From Candidatus Levybacteria bacterium RIFCSPHIGHO2_01_FULL_38_26 (lineage in GTDB: Bacteria > Patescibacteriota > Microgenomatia > Levybacterales > UBA12049), in the NCBI GenBank assembly GCA_001782075.1, contig MFNO01000004.1:1-60856 (forward strand): 60,856 nucleotides of DNA. Direction: 5' to 3'. The notes beneath the pieces were generated by a model that saw only the letters and a list, made by a program, of their open reading frames with translations, was not told the DNA's origin and searched no databases. Positions 27,156 to 39,776 of the stretch are shown piece after piece; position 1 is the first letter of the stretch, and each line of letters starts with the position of its first letter. The translations under genes and the position numbers were made by a program.

Positions 27156-27417
27156 TGCGGGGCTGGTATCGAAACCAGACTATGAGATTATGCATTTGTT
27201 TCTCCAATTACTTGGAGTGTCGGACTATATCTTCTCCGATGTTACATCGGAGCTCAGCGTGTAGTCTCTACGGTGTCCCCGATTAAATCGAGGTTCCCTC
27301 GGTATTGTCCTTCGCGACATCTCAGGAGTTCACCGATATAGCTGAGTACTATTCTCAATATTTCTATCAAGATGGCCCATTTTGTTAAGCCTCATGTGCG
27401 CCTTACACTACCCCGCG
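27156..27417 (-). tRNA. tRNA-Met(CAU), initiator-like, split by a group I intron
   Basis: Exons 27388-27417 and 27156-27193. Spliced RNA: acceptor CGCGGGG/CCCCGCA with a C1xA72 mismatch, the hallmark of bacterial initiator tRNA; D arm GTGT/GCAC; anticodon stem TGAGG/TCTCA with loop CTCATAA, anticodon CAU. The T arm CTGGT/ACCAG closes a six-base TTCGAT loop, one short of normal. The anticodon stem lacks the three G-C pairs typical of initiators, and pair 11-24 is pyrimidine-purine as in elongators, so the initiator identity is likely but not certain. CCA is not encoded. A promoter lies upstream (27428-27456). Confidence 0.88.
27194..27387 (-). ncRNA. Group I self-splicing intron (194 nt) in the tRNA anticodon loop
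   Basis: The intron interrupts the tRNA between U33 and C34. Group I hallmarks: 5' exon ends in U, pairing as U.G with the internal guide GGCC (P1, exon GGCU); last intron base is G. P3 is CGGTG/CACCG, P5 GTC/GAC, a P6 hairpin CGAT-TTA-ATCG, P7 GACTA/TAGTC within AGAGACTACACG and AAGATATAGTCC, P8 CTCCGATG-TAA-CATCGGAG, and P9 CTCCAA-GTAA-TTGGAG. P2 is GATAG...CTAT. No ORF is inside. All core helices are present, so it is probably active. Confidence 0.93.
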
Positions 27418-27529: not shown

Positions 27530-28213
27530 ATGGCTAAATCATTACTTAGGCTAGAGGCTCGTAAGCTACGTAAAAAAGGACTGAGTGTTAAAAGAATTGC
27601 TCAATATCTAAAAATTGCCAAGAGCTCAGCAAGCATCTGGACTAGAGATATTATTTTAACTGTAGAACAACTAGAGAATCTAAGAAAATCGAGCTTAGAA
27701 GGCGCAGAACGCGGACGCATCAAAAATGCCTTGCTTCAGAAAGAAAGATGGAAAAGAAAGATGGAAACTTTCAAGAAATCAGGAATAAAGAGTATAGGAA
27801 AATTAACTGATAGGGAATTTCTGATTGCGGGACTTGCTCTGTATTGGGGTGAGGGATACAAAAAAGGAAGAAGACTCCAGTTATGCAATTCAGATCCAAA
27901 AATGATAAAATTTTTGCTACTTTGGTTACAACGATGTTTTTCTATAAGTAGCTTGGACATACGATGTCGAGTAGGAATAAATTACATACATATTAAGAGG
28001 GAAAATATTGTTAAGGAATACTGGTCAAGAATTACAAGTGTTCCCCTAGCCCAATTCACAAGAACAAGCTTTAAGAAAGTAGAAAATAAGAAGCTATATG
28101 ATAATTTTAATGATCATTATGGTACGCTGTCAGTCGAGATTGTACAGCCTTCCCGCTTTTATGGTAAAATCATAGGACTTATTGACGGTTTACATGCAAA
28201 TATGCCAGGGTAG
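27530..28213 (+). CDS. HTH protein with LAGLIDADG-like motif (possible free-standing homing endonuclease)
   Basis: 227 residues. An N-terminal helix-turn-helix (~8-45, ARKLRKKGLSVKRIAQYL, then IAKSSASIW) is followed by a basic linker and a domain with FLIAGLALYWGEGYKKG, which resembles the G-L-x-x-x-E-G core of LAGLIDADG endonucleases, and CNSDPKMIKFLLLWL. A second IIGLIDG-like stretch is near the C-terminus. The last three codons and stop (ATG CCA GGG TAG) run into the first bases of the downstream tRNA. It lies between two CAU tRNA genes, one with a group I intron lacking its own ORF. A homing role is inference; a transcription factor with a LAGLIDADG-derived domain (WhiA-like) is an alternative. 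Confidence 0.7.
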   Translation: MAKSLLRLEARKLRKKGLSVKRIAQYLKIAKSSASIWTRDIILTVEQLENLRKSSLEGAERGRIKNALLQKERWKRKMETFKKSGIKSIGKLTDREFLIAGLALYWGEGYKKGRRLQLCNSDPKMIKFLLLWLQRCFSISSLDIRCRVGINYIHIKRENIVKEYWSRITSVPLAQFTRTSFKKVENKKLYDNFNDHYGTLSVEIVQPSRFYGKIIGLIDGLHANMPG

Positions 28214-33217: not shown

Positions 33218-33226
33218 TGATATAAT
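33218..33226 (+). promoter_or_regulatory. Extended -10 promoter of the trp leader
   Basis: TGATATAAT is an extended -10 (TATAAT at 33221-33226). A TTGACA at 33207-33212 is too close to act as its -35. Transcription should start near 33233, at the beginning of the T-box leader. Confidence 0.55.
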
Positions 33227-33232
33227 ATTTGT

Positions 33233-33559
33233 TGACAATTTAAAAAGAAGCGCTGATCCGGAATTTTGGAACCGGGGAGGGAGGCACAAGACTGCGCTTC
33301 CCGCGCTTAGCAAAATTAATAATGCACTGAGGCGAAACAGTAAAAGTCAGCAACATGTGTCGTAGTAACGGAGCATGTCATGAATAAGGTTAACTTATTC
33401 CATCTGACTATATCCCTGGCGACAGGGATTTTTAATGGTTAAGTTAACAAAGCAGGGTGGCACCATGGTTCGACAGACTCACCATAAACGGGTCTGACAA
33501 CCGTCCTTGTAAGATTTCAATCTTAATTTGAGATTGAGTTTTACAAGGGCGGTTTTTTT
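33233..33559 (+). promoter_or_regulatory. Tryptophan T-box riboswitch (leader of the trp operon)
   Basis: The 467-base gap before the operon holds a T-box leader. The T-box core AGGGTGGCACC is at 33454-33464; its bulge UGGC (33458-33461) would pair with a GCCA acceptor end, matching the G73 discriminator of bacterial tRNA-Trp. A candidate specifier UGG (Trp) at 33267-33269 is followed by A and lies in a CCGG/CCGG hairpin loop within a stem AAGCGC/GCGCTT (33248-33299). A three-way junction (GTCAG/CTGAC) and hairpin ATCCCTG-GCGA-CAGGGAT (stem III position) follow. The compact stem I, with the specifier in a terminal loop, is unusual. Uncharged tRNA-Trp should favour read-through into trpC-trpB-trpA-trpS. 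Confidence 0.88.
33500..33559 (+). terminator. Regulated intrinsic terminator of the T-box leader
   Basis: ACCGTCCTTGTAA (33500-33512) pairs with TTACAAGGGCGGT (33541-33553) with one G.U; the loop itself continues the stem (TCAATCT/GAGATTGA). Seven T follow (33553-33559). It lies directly after the T-box antiterminator sequence. Confidence 0.9.
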
Positions 33560-33660
33560 GTGCACCATTGGTAGATTTATAAACAGTGTGCAATCCGCCA
33601 TAAAGCGCTCCATGAGCCGCGTTGCGAATAGTAGGTAAGGCGAATGGGAAGCTTAGGAGG

Positions 33661-33993
33661 ATGTTAGAGCAGATTATGAAAGAAAGAAGAAGTTATCAAA
33701 ATGAACTAGCCTTTAGAGCTGGCGATGCTTTGCCTTTTAATGTTAAGGATCCAAATAAAGATCAGAATATTGTTAAAGGCGCAGTAAGAGTAGTTTTGGA
33801 TGATATGTGTCAAATACAAAGTAGGAGAGGGACAATAATTTACCCTCATCAATTGTCTGAGCGCGAGGTAAATATATTACGTAGACAGCTCTTTAGACAT
33901 GGATTAGGGAAAAGAGTTGAGGCCATTGTTCCAGTTAGACTCGAAGAAGGCATGGGAACAGAAATTTTGATAGCGAAGAAGAAAAGGGGGTGA
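33661..33993 (+). CDS. Small unknown protein, first gene of the trp operon
   Basis: About 110 residues, basic, mostly helical, with no family I recognise. The frame is open from a TTG at 33622; an AGGAGG at 33655-33660 touches ATG 33661 and lies 15 nt before ATG 33676, so the exact start is uncertain. The tail EAIVPVRLEEGMGTEILIAKKKRG is beta-strand-like. It is the first ORF after the T-box terminator and so is expected to respond to tryptophan supply. Confidence 0.6.
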   Translation: MLEQIMKERRSYQNELAFRAGDALPFNVKDPNKDQNIVKGAVRVVLDDMCQIQSRRGTIIYPHQLSEREVNILRRQLFRHGLGKRVEAIVPVRLEEGMGTEILIAKKKRG

Positions 33994-33999
33994 AAATAT

Positions 34000-34308
34000 A
34001 TGAGCATAGAATATGCGGGATTACCCAGGGAAACAATTTTAAGACTCATATATCCAGATTATGCTGGACATTTAAGAAGAACAAAAATACATAATAATGG
34101 ACAGCATAAATCCGAAAGAAATAAACAGCGTGTTATAGAACATAAGCTTAAGCGAAAAAGAGACATTTCAAGCTCTAATCATAGAATCGTTGATTCAACA
34201 TTACGACCAGTTACCCTTGAAGGCTTAAGAGAATGTTTGCCAAAAGTAGGAGTTATTTTTTGTATCAAAACCAGTACAAATGATAATGTTGATCCTTTAG
34301 GTAGATAA
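34000..34308 (+). CDS. Small basic unknown protein in the trp operon
   Basis: 102 residues, strongly basic in the middle (HKSERNKQRVIEHKLKRKRD). A good ribosome-binding site (AAGGGGGTG) lies about 8 nt before the ATG, which supports translation. No domain is recognised. It starts 6 bases after the previous ORF and ends 9 bases before the PfkB kinase gene. Confidence 0.6.
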   Translation: MSIEYAGLPRETILRLIYPDYAGHLRRTKIHNNGQHKSERNKQRVIEHKLKRKRDISSSNHRIVDSTLRPVTLEGLRECLPKVGVIFCIKTSTNDNVDPLGR

Positions 34309-34317
34309 GGAACTTAT

Positions 34318-35172
34318 ATGAAAAATAGATTAACAGTTTTTGGAACAATTGAATTTGGGAGAGCAAGATTTATCAATAAGACTTATTCAGAGACGTATAT
34401 AGGCGGTAATGGCGTTCTTGCAAGTCTTGCTGCAGCTAAGTATGCAAAAGTTGATTTAGTAGGGATAATCGGTAGCGATATGAATATTAAAAAACTGGCA
34501 AAATCACTAGGAAAAAACATAGGCATAAAGAATGTACAACAGTTAAAAGGCAAAAGCTTTAATTATGGGGCAATTTATGATCCTGTAAATTTTGATTTGG
34601 TTGATGAGGAAATAGAATTTGGAGTTTATGGATCGTATGTTCCTCATGTTTTGAATCGTGAAGCTCAACTATCAAGATATGTTCTTTTCAGCGGTTCGAA
34701 TCCGCGTTTTAGTCTTGGCATATTAAAACAAATTGAAAAACCTGAATACGTGGCAGTTAGTACTCTTTTTTATCACTTAAAAAATAATTTTACGCATGCT
34801 TTAGATTTAATAGAGTCAGCAACATATTTATTTACCAACTCTAAAGAATACGACTACCTAGTTAGCAAAATTGAAAAAAATTTATTCAGTCGTTTTAAGA
34901 GACTTAAATATATCTTTAAGACGAAAGGCGTAAATGGGGTCGAGGTGATATCTGCTAATGACTCGCGTAATTTCAAACTTTCTAAAAAAGTTAATCCCAA
35001 AGATCCAACAAACGCAGGGGACGTTTTTGTGGGAGCTGTTATGGGAATGATTGCTGCAGGTTTTGACATAGAAAAAGACATTAAAAAAATTATTGATTCA
35101 GCTCAACGTGAGGCGACAAAGGTTATTGTAAATGATAAATATTATCGCTTAAAAGCAAAAGGAAATATATGA
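34318..35172 (+). CDS. PfkB-family carbohydrate/nucleoside kinase
   Basis: 284 residues of the ribokinase fold. An N-terminal substrate motif GGNGVLASLAAAKY and the C-terminal catalytic/anion-hole motif DPTNAGDVFVGAV (D-x-x-x-A-G-D, with Asp as base) are visible. The usual DTTGAGD has become DPTNAGD, so activity is likely but specificity unknown. It overlaps trpC by 4 bases, so is translationally coupled within the T-box operon. A possible link is phosphorylation of a ribose-containing precursor for the Trp route; this is inference. Confidence 0.82.
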   Translation: MKNRLTVFGTIEFGRARFINKTYSETYIGGNGVLASLAAAKYAKVDLVGIIGSDMNIKKLAKSLGKNIGIKNVQQLKGKSFNYGAIYDPVNFDLVDEEIEFGVYGSYVPHVLNREAQLSRYVLFSGSNPRFSLGILKQIEKPEYVAVSTLFYHLKNNFTHALDLIESATYLFTNSKEYDYLVSKIEKNLFSRFKRLKYIFKTKGVNGVEVISANDSRNFKLSKKVNPKDPTNAGDVFVGAVMGMIAAGFDIEKDIKKIIDSAQREATKVIVNDKYYRLKAKGNI

Positions 35173-35957
35173 AAAAAACAACAACTATATTGGATAAAAT
35201 AATAAAAAATAAAAAACTAGAATTGACAGCTGCAAAGAAAGAAGTTCCTTTAAAGTATCTTAAAAACTCAATAAAAAAGAGAAATATAAGAAGTTTTAGC
35301 AATGCAATAGGGAAAAAGAATAAGCTTAATTTAATTGCCGAAATTAAAAAATCATCTCCGTCAGGTGGTTTGATAAGAAAAGATTTTAATCATGTTTCAA
35401 TAGCAACAGAATATCAACATTCTGGTTTGGTAGATGCAATTTCTGTGCTGACAGAAAAAAGATATTTTCAGGGAGATATTAAGTTTATAAAGGATATTAA
35501 AAAAATTACTCCAATTCCAATATTAAGAAAAGATTTTATTTTTGATGAGTATCAAATATATGAATCATATCTTGCAGAAGCAGATGCATTATTACTTATA
35601 GTTGCAGTTTTAGACCCATCGGAGTTAAAGCGCTTACTTAGCCTTACTCATAAATTAGGCATGGATGCTTTAGTAGAGATTCATTCAGAAAAAGAAATAG
35701 AGATTGCATTAAAAGCAGGAACTAGAATTATTGGAATTAATGCGCGAGATTTGAAAACATTCAAAGTTAACAATGCTTTGTTTGGGAGATTGTCTAGATA
35801 CATTCCTAAGGGAATTATTAAAGTTGCTGAGTCCGGCTTAGGACAAAGAAGAGATTTGGAAAATGTCTATAGGGCAGGAGCAAATGCAGCTTTGATTGGA
35901 ACATCTATTTTAGAAGCAAAAGATATAAAAATTAAGTTGAGAGAATTAGCGGGTTAA
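35169..35957 (+). CDS. trpC: Indole-3-glycerol phosphate synthase
   Basis: TIM-barrel enzyme closing the indole ring from CdRP, the step before tryptophan synthase. Signature segments: LIAEIKKSSPSGGLI (catalytic Lys and Ser-Pro-Ser phosphate/substrate motif), ISVLTEKRYFQGD, ILRKDFIFDEYQIYE, IIGINARDLKTFKV, and VAESGLG followed by GANAALIGTSIL. 262 residues, single-domain, not fused to TrpF. It is coupled to the PfkB gene upstream and followed after 4 bases by the HAD gene. Confidence 0.95.
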   Translation: MKKTTTILDKIIKNKKLELTAAKKEVPLKYLKNSIKKRNIRSFSNAIGKKNKLNLIAEIKKSSPSGGLIRKDFNHVSIATEYQHSGLVDAISVLTEKRYFQGDIKFIKDIKKITPIPILRKDFIFDEYQIYESYLAEADALLLIVAVLDPSELKRLLSLTHKLGMDALVEIHSEKEIEIALKAGTRIIGINARDLKTFKVNNALFGRLSRYIPKGIIKVAESGLGQRRDLENVYRAGANAALIGTSILEAKDIKIKLRELAG

Positions 35958-35961
35958 GACT

Positions 35962-36786
35962 ATGAATGAGTTGTTAAAAAGATATAGGGTAGAGGCGCAA
36001 AATGAGAATAGCCTAAGAGAAGTAAGGGAGATGATTATTGCCCCTGATACTCTTACCGTATTTGATTTTGACCATACAATGTTTAAGACTAGCATCTTTC
36101 ATAGAATGTCGTTTCAGGGAGTGCTTCATGCGTTGGGAAGATCGTTAGAAATTACGCCCGAATTAGGAGCAAAACTTAAAGGGGGAGGAGACGAGGAGAT
36201 ATTTGAAATATTGCTTGATGCTTCAGGGGGAACGGATAAGAATTTGCTCTTACGAGCAATTAATGAAAGAAAAAAGATCTTAATACAAGCAGTTAAAGCA
36301 GACGGAGACCTAGCTGCCTATTTTATGCCAGGCATACCAGATGCTATAAGAAGTTTAAGAGCTTGTGGTAAGAAAGTAGGTATTGCAAGCGCAAGTCCAG
36401 ATGGTTTTGTTCAAGAATTTGTTGCAAGAGTCAGTGTAGACGGAGTTAACATAAACGATGTATTTATATCAGATGCTATTATTGGTGGTACAACAGTTAG
36501 GTCAGTTCACAATTCTCTTTCAGTTGATAGTGATTCGCCGTCCTCTCTTAATAAACCTAACCCTTTCTCTATTAGATATTCAGCAAATAAAATAAGCGGA
36601 GAACAGGGATTTCCAATTTTATACATTGGCGATGGAAGAGTAGATGCCTTGAGTGTCCGCGGAAATCAAAATATGGTTGGGTTGATAGTCAATGCGGAAG
36701 AACATGATTCATTGCGTAAAGAATTTGAGAGAGATGAAAATATTATAGTAGTAGGATCAATAGGGGAGGTTTTGAATGCAAAATAA
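35962..36786 (+). CDS. HAD-superfamily phosphatase in the trp operon
   Basis: 274 residues. HAD motif I is FDFDHTMF (D-x-D nucleophile), motif II region IASASPDG, motif III Lys near [10 protein letters not shown], motif [12 protein letters not shown] helical cap lies between motifs I and II (~40-125). Substrate is unknown. It sits between trpC and trpB and overlaps trpB by 11 bases, so it is made together with the tryptophan enzymes; a role in trimming a phosphorylated intermediate or in salvage is possible. Confidence 0.82.
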
Positions 36787-38005
36787 AGGGCATTTTGGAC
36801 AATTTGGGGGAAGATATGTGCCAGAAATGTTGATTCCAGCTCTTGAGGAATTGGAGAAGTCGTATTTTAAGGCAAAAAAAGATAAGGAGTTTCAGAAAAA
36901 GTTTAGTTATCATCTTAAAACCTATGCTGGTCGTCCAACTCCTTTGACATTTGCCAAAAATCTTACAGAAAAACTCGGAGGAGCAAAGATTTATCTTAAA
37001 AATGAAGGATTAAATCTAACAGGCGCGCATAAAATCACTCACTGTATTGGACAGGCACTCCTTGCAAAAAGAATGGGTAAGACAAGACTCATTGCAGAAA
37101 CAGGAGCAGGACAGCATGGCCTAGCAACGGCAACTGTTGCGGCAAAATTTGGATTTTCATGCACTATTTATATGGGAGAAGTAGATATTGTAAGGCAAAG
37201 GCCAAATGTTTTTCTCATGGAACAGCTTGGAGCAAAAGTAATTCCTGTTTCTTTTGGCAATAAAACTTTAAAAGACGCGGTTAATGCTGCTTTAAAAGAT
37301 TGGATTGAAAATGTAGATACAACGCATTATCTCTTGGGATCGGTTGTTGGTCCGCATCCATATCCTACTATGACTCGAGACTTTCAATCAGTTGTGGGAA
37401 GAGAAGTAAAAAGGCAAATTAAAAATGAAACTGGTAAATTGCCTGATTACATTATAGCTTGCGTTGGAGGAGGGAGTAATGCGATGGGTATTTTTACTGA
37501 ATTTATCAAAGAGAAAAATGTAGAGTTGATCGGGGTGGAAGCAGGCGGTAAAGGTAAGGCAGTAGGAGAAAATGCTATCAGATTCAATGGCGGGTCAATT
37601 GGAGTAGTAGAGGGGTATAAATCATATTTTTTACAAGACAGCGATGGACAAATTCAAAAAACTCACAGCATTTCGGCAGGATTAGATTATGCTGGAATAG
37701 GACCAGAGCTTGCATACTTAAAAGAAAAAGGAAGAGTAAAATTTACATCCGCTACAGATGCAGAGGCTTTAGGCGCATTTGATATTTTGGCAAAGACAGA
37801 AGGTATTATTCCTGCCTTAGAATCTTCTCATGCGGTAGCAGAAGCTATAAAACTTGCTCCAAAACTGAAAAAAAGTGACGTAATTGTCGTAAATCTTTCA
37901 GGTCGTGGAGACAAGGATTTGTTTATCTTGGCAAAAGCTTTGGGAGATGATAAGTTTATGGATTTTTTGAAAAGTTATATTAATGATGATGAACAAAATA
38001 GATAA
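36776..38005 (+). CDS. trpB: Tryptophan synthase beta chain
   Basis: PLP enzyme joining indole and serine. [17 protein letters not shown] at the N-terminus, the PLP lysine in [27 protein letters not shown], the phosphate loop [10 protein letters not shown] and [19 protein letters not shown] near the C-terminus are diagnostic of the TrpB1 subfamily that partners TrpA. 409 residues, standard length. It overlaps the HAD gene upstream and trpA downstream (23 bases). Confidence 0.97.
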
Positions 38006-38783
38006 GCGATTGCAGAAAACAAAAAAGGAGAAAAGACTAGGATTGATGACGCATGTTGTTGTCGGCTATCCTTCTTTGGCTAAAACATTTGATATTGTAA
38101 AAATTATGGAAAAAAATGGAGTAGATTTTGTTGAGCTTCAGATACCATTCTCTGATCCGTTAGCTGATGGTACAACTATTATGAAGGCTTGTGAGAGTGC
38201 GTTAAAAAATGGCACAAAAGTTAAAGATGCTTTTGATGTTGTGGAAAAGTTGTCTGGGGAAGTGAAGATTCCGCTTCTTTTCATGGCGTACTATAATACT
38301 GTGTTTAAATACGGAACAGAAAAGTTTTGCAAAGGCGCAAGTGCGGTTGGGATAGCAGGGCTTATTGTTCCTGATATGCCGATTGAAGAGGAACAGTGTG
38401 AACATTTTGACAAATATTGTAGAAAATATAATTTGAAGAATATCAAAGTTCTATCGCCATCTTCTACGGATGAACGTTTGGAAAAAAATGAAAAGGTTGC
38501 GAGTGGTTTTGTTTATTTTACCGCAAGACAGGGAATAACTGGAGCAAAAGATACATTGGATCCAAAAATCCAGATCTATCTTAAAAAAGTAAAAAAATAT
38601 TTTTCTATTCCAGTTGCAGTTGGATTTGGTATCTCAAAGAGGGAGCACATGAGAGCATTGCAACAGCATGCTGATATAGCAGTTGTTGGAAGTGCAATTA
38701 TTGAAGTAATCAATAAGTCTAAGGATCAGGACATAGAGAAAAATGTTAGGAGTTTTATAAAGAACTTAAAAATGGTAAACTAG
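37983..38783 (+). CDS. trpA: Tryptophan synthase alpha chain
   Basis: TIM-barrel subunit releasing indole from indole-3-glycerol phosphate. The catalytic Glu is in [15 protein letters not shown] (usual ELGIPFSDP, here Gln for Gly), the second catalytic Asp is in the same block, and [11 protein letters not shown] plus [11 protein letters not shown] and VVGSAIIE are conserved. Three consecutive ATGs (37983, 37986, 37989) leave the start ambiguous by two codons. The 23-base overlap with trpB implies translational coupling. Confidence 0.96.
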
Positions 38784-38795
38784 GGGAGACTTTAT

Positions 38796-39776
38796 ATGAA
38801 AAAGCGAGTTTATTCTGGTATACGTGCTACAGGACGATTGCATCTGGGGAATTATTTGGGAGCGGTCAAGGGGATGCTTGCTTTGCAGGACGAGTATGAC
38901 TGCATTTTTTCTGTGGTTGACTCCCATACTATTACTGTTCCCTACGATCCAAAAACACTCAAGCAATCGGTCCGTGAGATAATATTGGATTATTTAGCAG
39001 CCGGACTTGATCCTAAGAAGTGTCATTTGGAGATTCAGTCAATGGTGCCGCAGCATATAGAGCTTTCCTATTATCTTGCAACTATTTATCCTGTTTCACG
39101 TCTTGAAGATTTGCCTACATACAAAGACAAAAAAGCTCAGTACCCAAAGTATGTGAACATGGGGCTTTTGTATTATCCGGTTCTTATGGCGGCAGACGTA
39201 TTGTTGTATAAGGGAGAATTGGTGCCCGTTGGGATAGACCAGGAGCCGCATCTTGAAGTAATGCGGGAAATCGCACGAAAGTTTAATGGTATGTTTGGGC
39301 AAACATTTCCTGAGCCGCAAAGATTTAAAACAGAAGGTGAATATGTGCCCTCGTTAGCAGGCGGGGGAAAGATGAGTAAGTCTGTTGAGGGGAGTTATAT
39401 TACTTTAACTGATGATTTGGAGACAATTAGAAAGCGTTTGGCAGCTGCTCCAACAGATAGCGGACAAATCGGCGGAGAGCTTCCAAAAGAGGGTGGAGTT
39501 GCGAACTTATTTAAACTGTTAAAACTACTAAAACTTGATGTTGAGTATAAAAAATTTGAACAGGATTACAGAGATAAAAAAATTCGCTACACAGAGCTGA
39601 AAGAGGTTTTGGCGAAGGCAATTTACGAAGAACTGCAGCCGTTTCAGGAGAAAAGAAAAATCTTCAAAGAAGATCCTAAACTTGTTGATGACATCATTGA
39701 TGAAGGTAACAGAAAGTGTCTTCAAATGGCAGATAGGACGATGGGGGAAGTGAAAAAGAAGATGGGGTTGATTTAG
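38796..39776 (+). CDS. trpS: Tryptophan--tRNA ligase
   Basis: Class I synthetase charging tRNA-Trp, the ligand read by the T-box upstream. SGIRATGRLHLGNYLGA contains the HIGH-equivalent HLGN, MAADVLLY and VGIDQEPHLE are the Trp-site region, and GKMSKSVEG is the KMSKS loop. 326 residues, standard bacterial TrpRS. A GGGGAG Shine-Dalgarno precedes the ATG. Having trpS at the end of the T-box operon is consistent with regulation by uncharged tRNA-Trp. Confidence 0.97.
   Translation: MKKRVYSGIRATGRLHLGNYLGAVKGMLALQDEYDCIFSVVDSHTITVPYDPKTLKQSVREIILDYLAAGLDPKKCHLEIQSMVPQHIELSYYLATIYPVSRLEDLPTYKDKKAQYPKYVNMGLLYYPVLMAADVLLYKGELVPVGIDQEPHLEVMREIARKFNGMFGQTFPEPQRFKTEGEYVPSLAGGGKMSKSVEGSYITLTDDLETIRKRLAAAPTDSGQIGGELPKEGGVANLFKLLKLLKLDVEYKKFEQDYRDKKIRYTELKEVLAKAIYEELQPFQEKRKIFKEDPKLVDDIIDEGNRKCLQMADRTMGEVKKKMGLI

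Follow-up and report, generated by a model that had tools for sequence, protein, structure and literature searches.

The DNA analysed here (the window) is a stretch of 60,856 nucleotides from contig MFNO01000004.1 of a Candidatus Levybacteria bacterium, whose genome of 1.13 Mb is 98.5% complete. The source had been recognized as a candidate-phylum genome from the sequence, which holds, and the genomes of the same family are Levybacteria records. The leader studied occupies positions 33248–33559 of the window on the plus strand, as do all the features described below unless noted otherwise. It is followed by two open reading frames with no assigned function (33622–33993 and 34000–34308), a PfkB-family kinase gene (34318–35172), trpC (35169–35957; PF00218), a HAD-family hydrolase gene (35962–36786), trpB (36776–38005; PF00291, with the trp operon context), trpA (37983–38783; PF00290) and trpS (38796–39776; PF00579). 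The original prediction listed trpC, trpB, trpA and trpS after the leader; all are present, but trpC is not immediately adjacent, because two reading frames and the PfkB-like gene come first. Genes for tryptophan synthesis or trpS lie 3′ of the leader here and in most relatives; in L022 it is a trp operon with trpS last, and trpS homologues (31–86% identity) are found downstream of many related leaders. In L023 and L012 the leader is directly followed by a gene for a homologue (35–42% identity) of the protein encoded at 33622–33993. Upstream, a TATAAT at 33221–33226 is a candidate −10 box with no good −35 box at the standard spacing; it is graded as weak because a promoter scan gave no plus-strand sigma-70 match and no convincing promoter. 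Elsewhere in the window, RF00028 (group I intron) matches at 27201–27397 on the minus strand with 68.6 bits. A reading frame of 227 amino acids at 27530–28213 has no match in Pfam, overlaps a tRNA-Met gene where that gene starts (28204) and possibly encodes a homing-endonuclease-like protein.

From its 5′ end the leader is built of a K-turned stem I, a tiny stem II, a stem IIA/B-like helix, a hairpin that we call A, a purine string, stem III, the T-box and the terminator T2. Stem I (33248–33308) has the base AAGCGC/GCGCUU, a UGA/GGA K-turn element and a 5-bp helix UCCGG/CCGGG (helix 2 of the alignment described below), in which all five pairs show two-sided changes. On top of this helix, in an apical loop of about 10 nt, lies the specifier UGG for tryptophan (33267–33269), which is followed by a conserved purine and is invariant among the aligned leaders; a UGG in the terminal loop of a short stem I is what had been proposed. 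A hairpin GGGAGGC..GCUUCCC is inserted on the 3′ side of the K-turn (33279–33302) and varies among relatives. Stem II (33310–33325) is a short GCA/UGC helix (helix 3), supported in the alignment, with a purine-rich, S-turn-like loop containing RUA; the canonical AGUA/GAA S-turn is absent from this loop, and a typical S-turn could not be demonstrated. The IIA/B-like element (33327–33351) combines a CUG/CAG helix, an F-box-like AGUAA and the conserved AAAGUCAGC. Its first helix (helix 4; two-sided changes in two of three pairs) and the CCGUAA-like box are supported in the alignment, whereas a search for the second pseudoknot stem of this element gave no supported helix; GRC/GUC was considered for that stem and dropped, as it is broken in L079–L081. 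Hairpin A (33353–33378; ACAUG-UGUCG..CGGAG-CAUGU) is a conserved extra domain between the IIA/B-like element and stem III (helix 5), with 98.3% of its cells paired and two-sided changes in four of seven pairs. The elements named in the original prediction are found in this anatomy; the inserted hairpin, hairpin A and a terminator-like hairpin inside stem III, T1, had been overlooked. A palindrome of the type CCTCCTTCGC..GGAAGG, resembling a small repetitive element, occurs in differing loops of the leaders L011, L012, L018, L030, L081, L172 and L224.

The 3′ part carries the T-box core AGGGTGGCACC at 33454–33464. It lies in an antiterminator (33453–33509; fold −17.2 kcal/mol) made of helix A1 (CAGGG/CCUUG), helix A2 (AUGGUU/AACCGU) and an extended hairpin (CAGACUC/GGGUCUG); at the base of helix A2 the window has an A-U pair instead of G-U. 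The bulge UGGCACC (33458–33464) is of the UGGN-ACC form, and its UGGC is complementary to the G73-CCA end of tRNA-Trp. T2 (33499–33559; fold −32.7 kcal/mol) ends in seven U residues and shares AACCGUCCUUG with the antiterminator, and the two structures are mutually exclusive. The core, the UGGC bulge and the strong terminator were thus all correctly read at the outset. The fold of the leader has a z-score of −6.5, well outside what chance would give.

A search of the window and its own genome with the Rfam T-box model RF00230, which had been suggested as a check, gave no match at the gathering score; with lax filters the leader scores 15.7 bits, below the cut-off of 93. The model misses it because it describes long-stem-I T-boxes and not a short-stem architecture, and we take the cut-off as a property of the database and not as a structural criterion that defines T-boxes. 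Using BLASTN with the leader as the query, homologous leaders were found in 13 of 119 relatives, and a conserved-core pattern run on the collection of species genomes picked out 16 contigs, almost all of them from Microgenomates. A covariance model was built from 12 aligned leaders, with an insert removed in two of them, and ends at the purine string, ahead of T1 and the T-box; when 373 genomes of the class were searched with it, 98 gave matches. In the window's own genome its other matches are all below 17 bits, the best of them without a T-box. In an alignment of 25 leaders, which was fitted to the structure and hence leans toward it, 95.7% of cells are paired, and two-sided changes occur at 15 of the 20 pairs. 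Covariation scores 0.556, compared with 0.172 ± 0.016 for shuffled alignments and at most 0.104 for slid ones, and the two-sided changes, as judged from this alignment, are too numerous to stem from the fitting alone. The covariance support that the proposed fold called for is therefore found.

The tRNA-Trp of the same genome, on contig C2, has the anticodon CCA and G73, and so both predicted contacts with the leader fit: the specifier UGG is complementary to the anticodon and the C of the bulge to G73. Among the 12 tRNA-Trp genes read in the window's genome and related genomes, 11 have G73. The remaining gene has A73 and is the sole tRNA-Trp detected in its genome (G113; leaders L006/L028), where it immediately follows a leader with a UGGC bulge, which would call for G73; another of the few relatives that depart from the bulge rule is L084, with a UGGA bulge against G73. 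The bulge of Trp leaders is otherwise mostly UGGC, with a few UGGU.

Weaker matches to the covariance model show the same architecture with other specifiers, CAC, CGC, CCC, UAC, UGC or AAC standing in the position of UGG, and with matching genes; these were called by a regular expression and corrected by eye (in the window, L084, L012, L248 and L184 among others). The His leaders have CAC, UGGG in all six readable bulges and hisG, hisS or tRNA-His downstream, while the Pro leaders combine CCC or CCU with UGGU and proB, proC, proS or an ornithine cyclodeaminase gene. UAC (Tyr) occurs with UGGU, once ahead of tRNA-Tyr, UGC (Cys) with UGGA ahead of a cysK-like gene, CGC (Arg) with argH, and AAC (Asn) ahead of aspS in a leader without a T-box. 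tRNA-His has C73 and tRNA-Cys has U73, so that UGGG and UGGA are the expected bulge changes. On a single short scaffold, codon, bulge and target gene thus change jointly for six or more amino acids. About 15 leaders lie directly ahead of a tRNA gene (taking the union of two tRNA scans whose lists differed), and the anticodon matches wherever the specifier is readable. The part of the literature covered by our search held no description of T-boxes before tRNA genes.

We read the leader as a tryptophan T-box riboswitch that probably acts by transcription attenuation (probability about 0.9), which agrees with the original prediction in the specifier, the bulge, the tRNA of the same genome and the downstream trp genes and trpS. 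By extrapolation from known T-boxes, as regards tRNA binding, charge sensing and the action at T2, the apical UGG of stem I would pair with the CCA anticodon of tRNA-Trp, which stem II and the IIA/B-like element would help to hold. The 3′ G73-CCA of an uncharged tRNA would pair with the UGGC bulge and stabilize the antiterminator, and RNA polymerase would continue into the operon with trpC, trpB, trpA and trpS. With charged tRNA-Trp the bulge would stay uncaptured, AACCGUCCUUG would enter T2 and transcription would stop.

Of the classes of T-box described (PMC10482949), the leader comes closest to class III, the ileS type of Nocardia farcinica and Mycobacterium tuberculosis (PMC10482949, PMC7583486). 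The two have in common a short stem I with a K-turn and an apical specifier but no tRNA-elbow module, a stem II, a IIA/B-like element with an F-box-like sequence, a stem III and a UGGN bulge. Here the apical loop measures about 10 nt, against 5–6 nt in class III, stem II is very small, hairpin A is additional, and stem III encloses T1 and is involved in a strand exchange. The family in which the leader falls serves several amino acids, whereas class III serves isoleucine; the output of class III is mostly translational, by masking of the ribosome site, whereas intrinsic terminators, T1 and T2, are predicted here. The likeness to Actinobacterial short-stem-I T-boxes that had been noticed therefore extends to stem I but not to the output, and by its predicted architecture the leader is a T-box that stands near class III as a transcriptional variant without being a plain member of it. 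With class I (RF00230, the Bacillus subtilis tyrS type) it shares the T-box bulge, the antiterminator/terminator switch and targets among biosynthesis and aminoacyl-tRNA synthetase genes, but not the long stem I. In Bacillota, trp operons with tandem T-boxes (PMC12452182) likewise have two terminators in a single trp leader, although these belong to two complete T-boxes in series, whereas here there is one T-box and a terminator inside stem III. Hairpin A has no counterpart in the T-boxes described in the literature that we compared.

T1 (33412–33433; 0.4 expected) is an intrinsic-terminator-like hairpin, AUCCCUG-GCGA-CAGGGAU, followed by a U tract. Similar hairpins are present in 70 of the 94 members with a T-box 20–200 nt past the model match, the window included, compared with a mean of 0.67 and a maximum of two in 30 rounds of dinucleotide shuffling. 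This enrichment is not circular, because the T1 region lies outside the covariance model. The sequence of the T1 stem varies freely among members, as in intrinsic terminators, and T1-like hairpins are also seen in three of 26 canonical RF00230 loci of the phylum. T1 is flanked by strands with a conserved exchange of partners. Strand X (33371–33388) comprises the 3′ side of hairpin A and the purine string GAAUAAG (33382–33388); strand Y (33389–33408) can form hairpin B with X, in which the purine string would be concealed, or stem III with strand Z (33437–33448); stem III would be part of the charge-sensing domain and has T1 between its two sides. Stem III covaries and in the window stands in a purine context, RAANRAG before it and AAAG after strand Z. 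Among 59 dereplicated members the X:Y duplexes have a mean energy of −9.0 kcal/mol when a member's own strands are paired and −5.9 kcal/mol when they are crossed between members; for Y:Z the values are −11.3 and −5.2 kcal/mol (0 of 10000 permutations in both cases). Kinship could inflate these figures, but the X:Z control duplexes from the same members gave no signal, which argues against kinship as the whole cause. Two further pairings were set aside: a helix AGUC/GACU around hairpin A, which appears in some folds and is lost where X:Y changes, and an anti-T1 pairing between hairpin A and T1, which is conspicuous in L210 but, on inspection by eye, inconsistent across members.

In about ten relatives (L080, L185, L194, L209, L210, L211 and L247 among them) the anticodon-reading half of the leader (stem I to hairpin A) and T1 are retained, but the T-box is missing. 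They end in a terminator and precede tRNA-Trp with trpS, hisS (as in L209), tRNA-His or aspS (as in L210), and no known family in Rfam matches them. These T-box-less forms and the presence of T1 in most members both seem to be new features. In L199, L215 and L231, Trp leaders are reduced to stem I and the antiterminator.

These forms bear on the role of T1. With somewhat less than an even chance, it may be a true first attenuator run by the anticodon-reading half. The leader would then take two sequential decisions, T1 reading whether a tRNA is bound and T2 whether it is charged. Such a role would account for the abundance of T1 on a freely varying stem and for the conserved exchange on either side of it, as well as for the relatives that have T1 but no T-box. 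However, T1 overlaps none of X, Y and Z and can form in either the X:Y or the Y:Z state, so that no strand clearly competes with it, and termination at T1 is itself only predicted. It is equally likely that T1 only slows or partly stops the polymerase, leaving the tRNA time to bind ahead of the decision at T2, or that it caps stem III as an inert structure. Its position inside stem III and the roughly one quarter of members that lack it fit this, but it is the sole output kept in the T-box-less relatives, and a mere cap needs no U tract. The broader proposal, that T-boxes of Microgenomates work in two stages, T1 by anticodon reading alone and T2 by charge, with the T-box-less forms being charge-blind, tRNA-counting riboswitches, appears rather unlikely on the present sequences. 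Whether a tRNA can be sensed through its anticodon alone becomes testable with T1, the T-box-less forms and those leaders that precede a matching tRNA gene.

A decayed T-box, or a translational regulator of the Actinobacterial kind, is a very improbable reading of the leader: its short stem I does resemble that class (PMC10482949), but it is conserved with covariation across its own class of bacteria, T2 is strong and the candidate Shine–Dalgarno sequence lies about 95 nt past it. Attenuation by a translated Trp leader peptide, for which UGG would serve as the Trp codon, deserves practically no weight, as the specifier is part of a structured loop and, from one amino acid to another, the T-box bulge changes in step with the discriminator base of the tRNA.

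The T-box described here is not an isolated one in this phylum. The phylum tables of a 2008 survey (PMC2494555) do not include candidate phyla, the short-stem model of TBDB was applied to Actinobacteria and to truncated class I matches (PMC7778990), and our literature search, of partial coverage, found no T-boxes reported from candidate phyla. Of 286 genomes sampled from the phylum, 95 nevertheless contain T-box matches, beside the short-stem type in the class. tRNA-sensing leaders are thus common in a candidate phylum, and the standard model misses most of the short-stem type. The suggestion that the leader was acquired by transfer does not sit well with these counts; because T-boxes are so widespread in the phylum, a recent transfer is unlikely. 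The same type of T-box is seen before trpE-like and trpG-like reading frames on a contig binned as Nanoarchaeota (L032), a placement that is probably a binning error. In other classes of the phylum, L083 and L085 are T-boxes with UGGGACCGCG and a hairpin A, and in another part of it (L104 in genome G351) a T-box match lies ahead of three tRNA-Arg genes.
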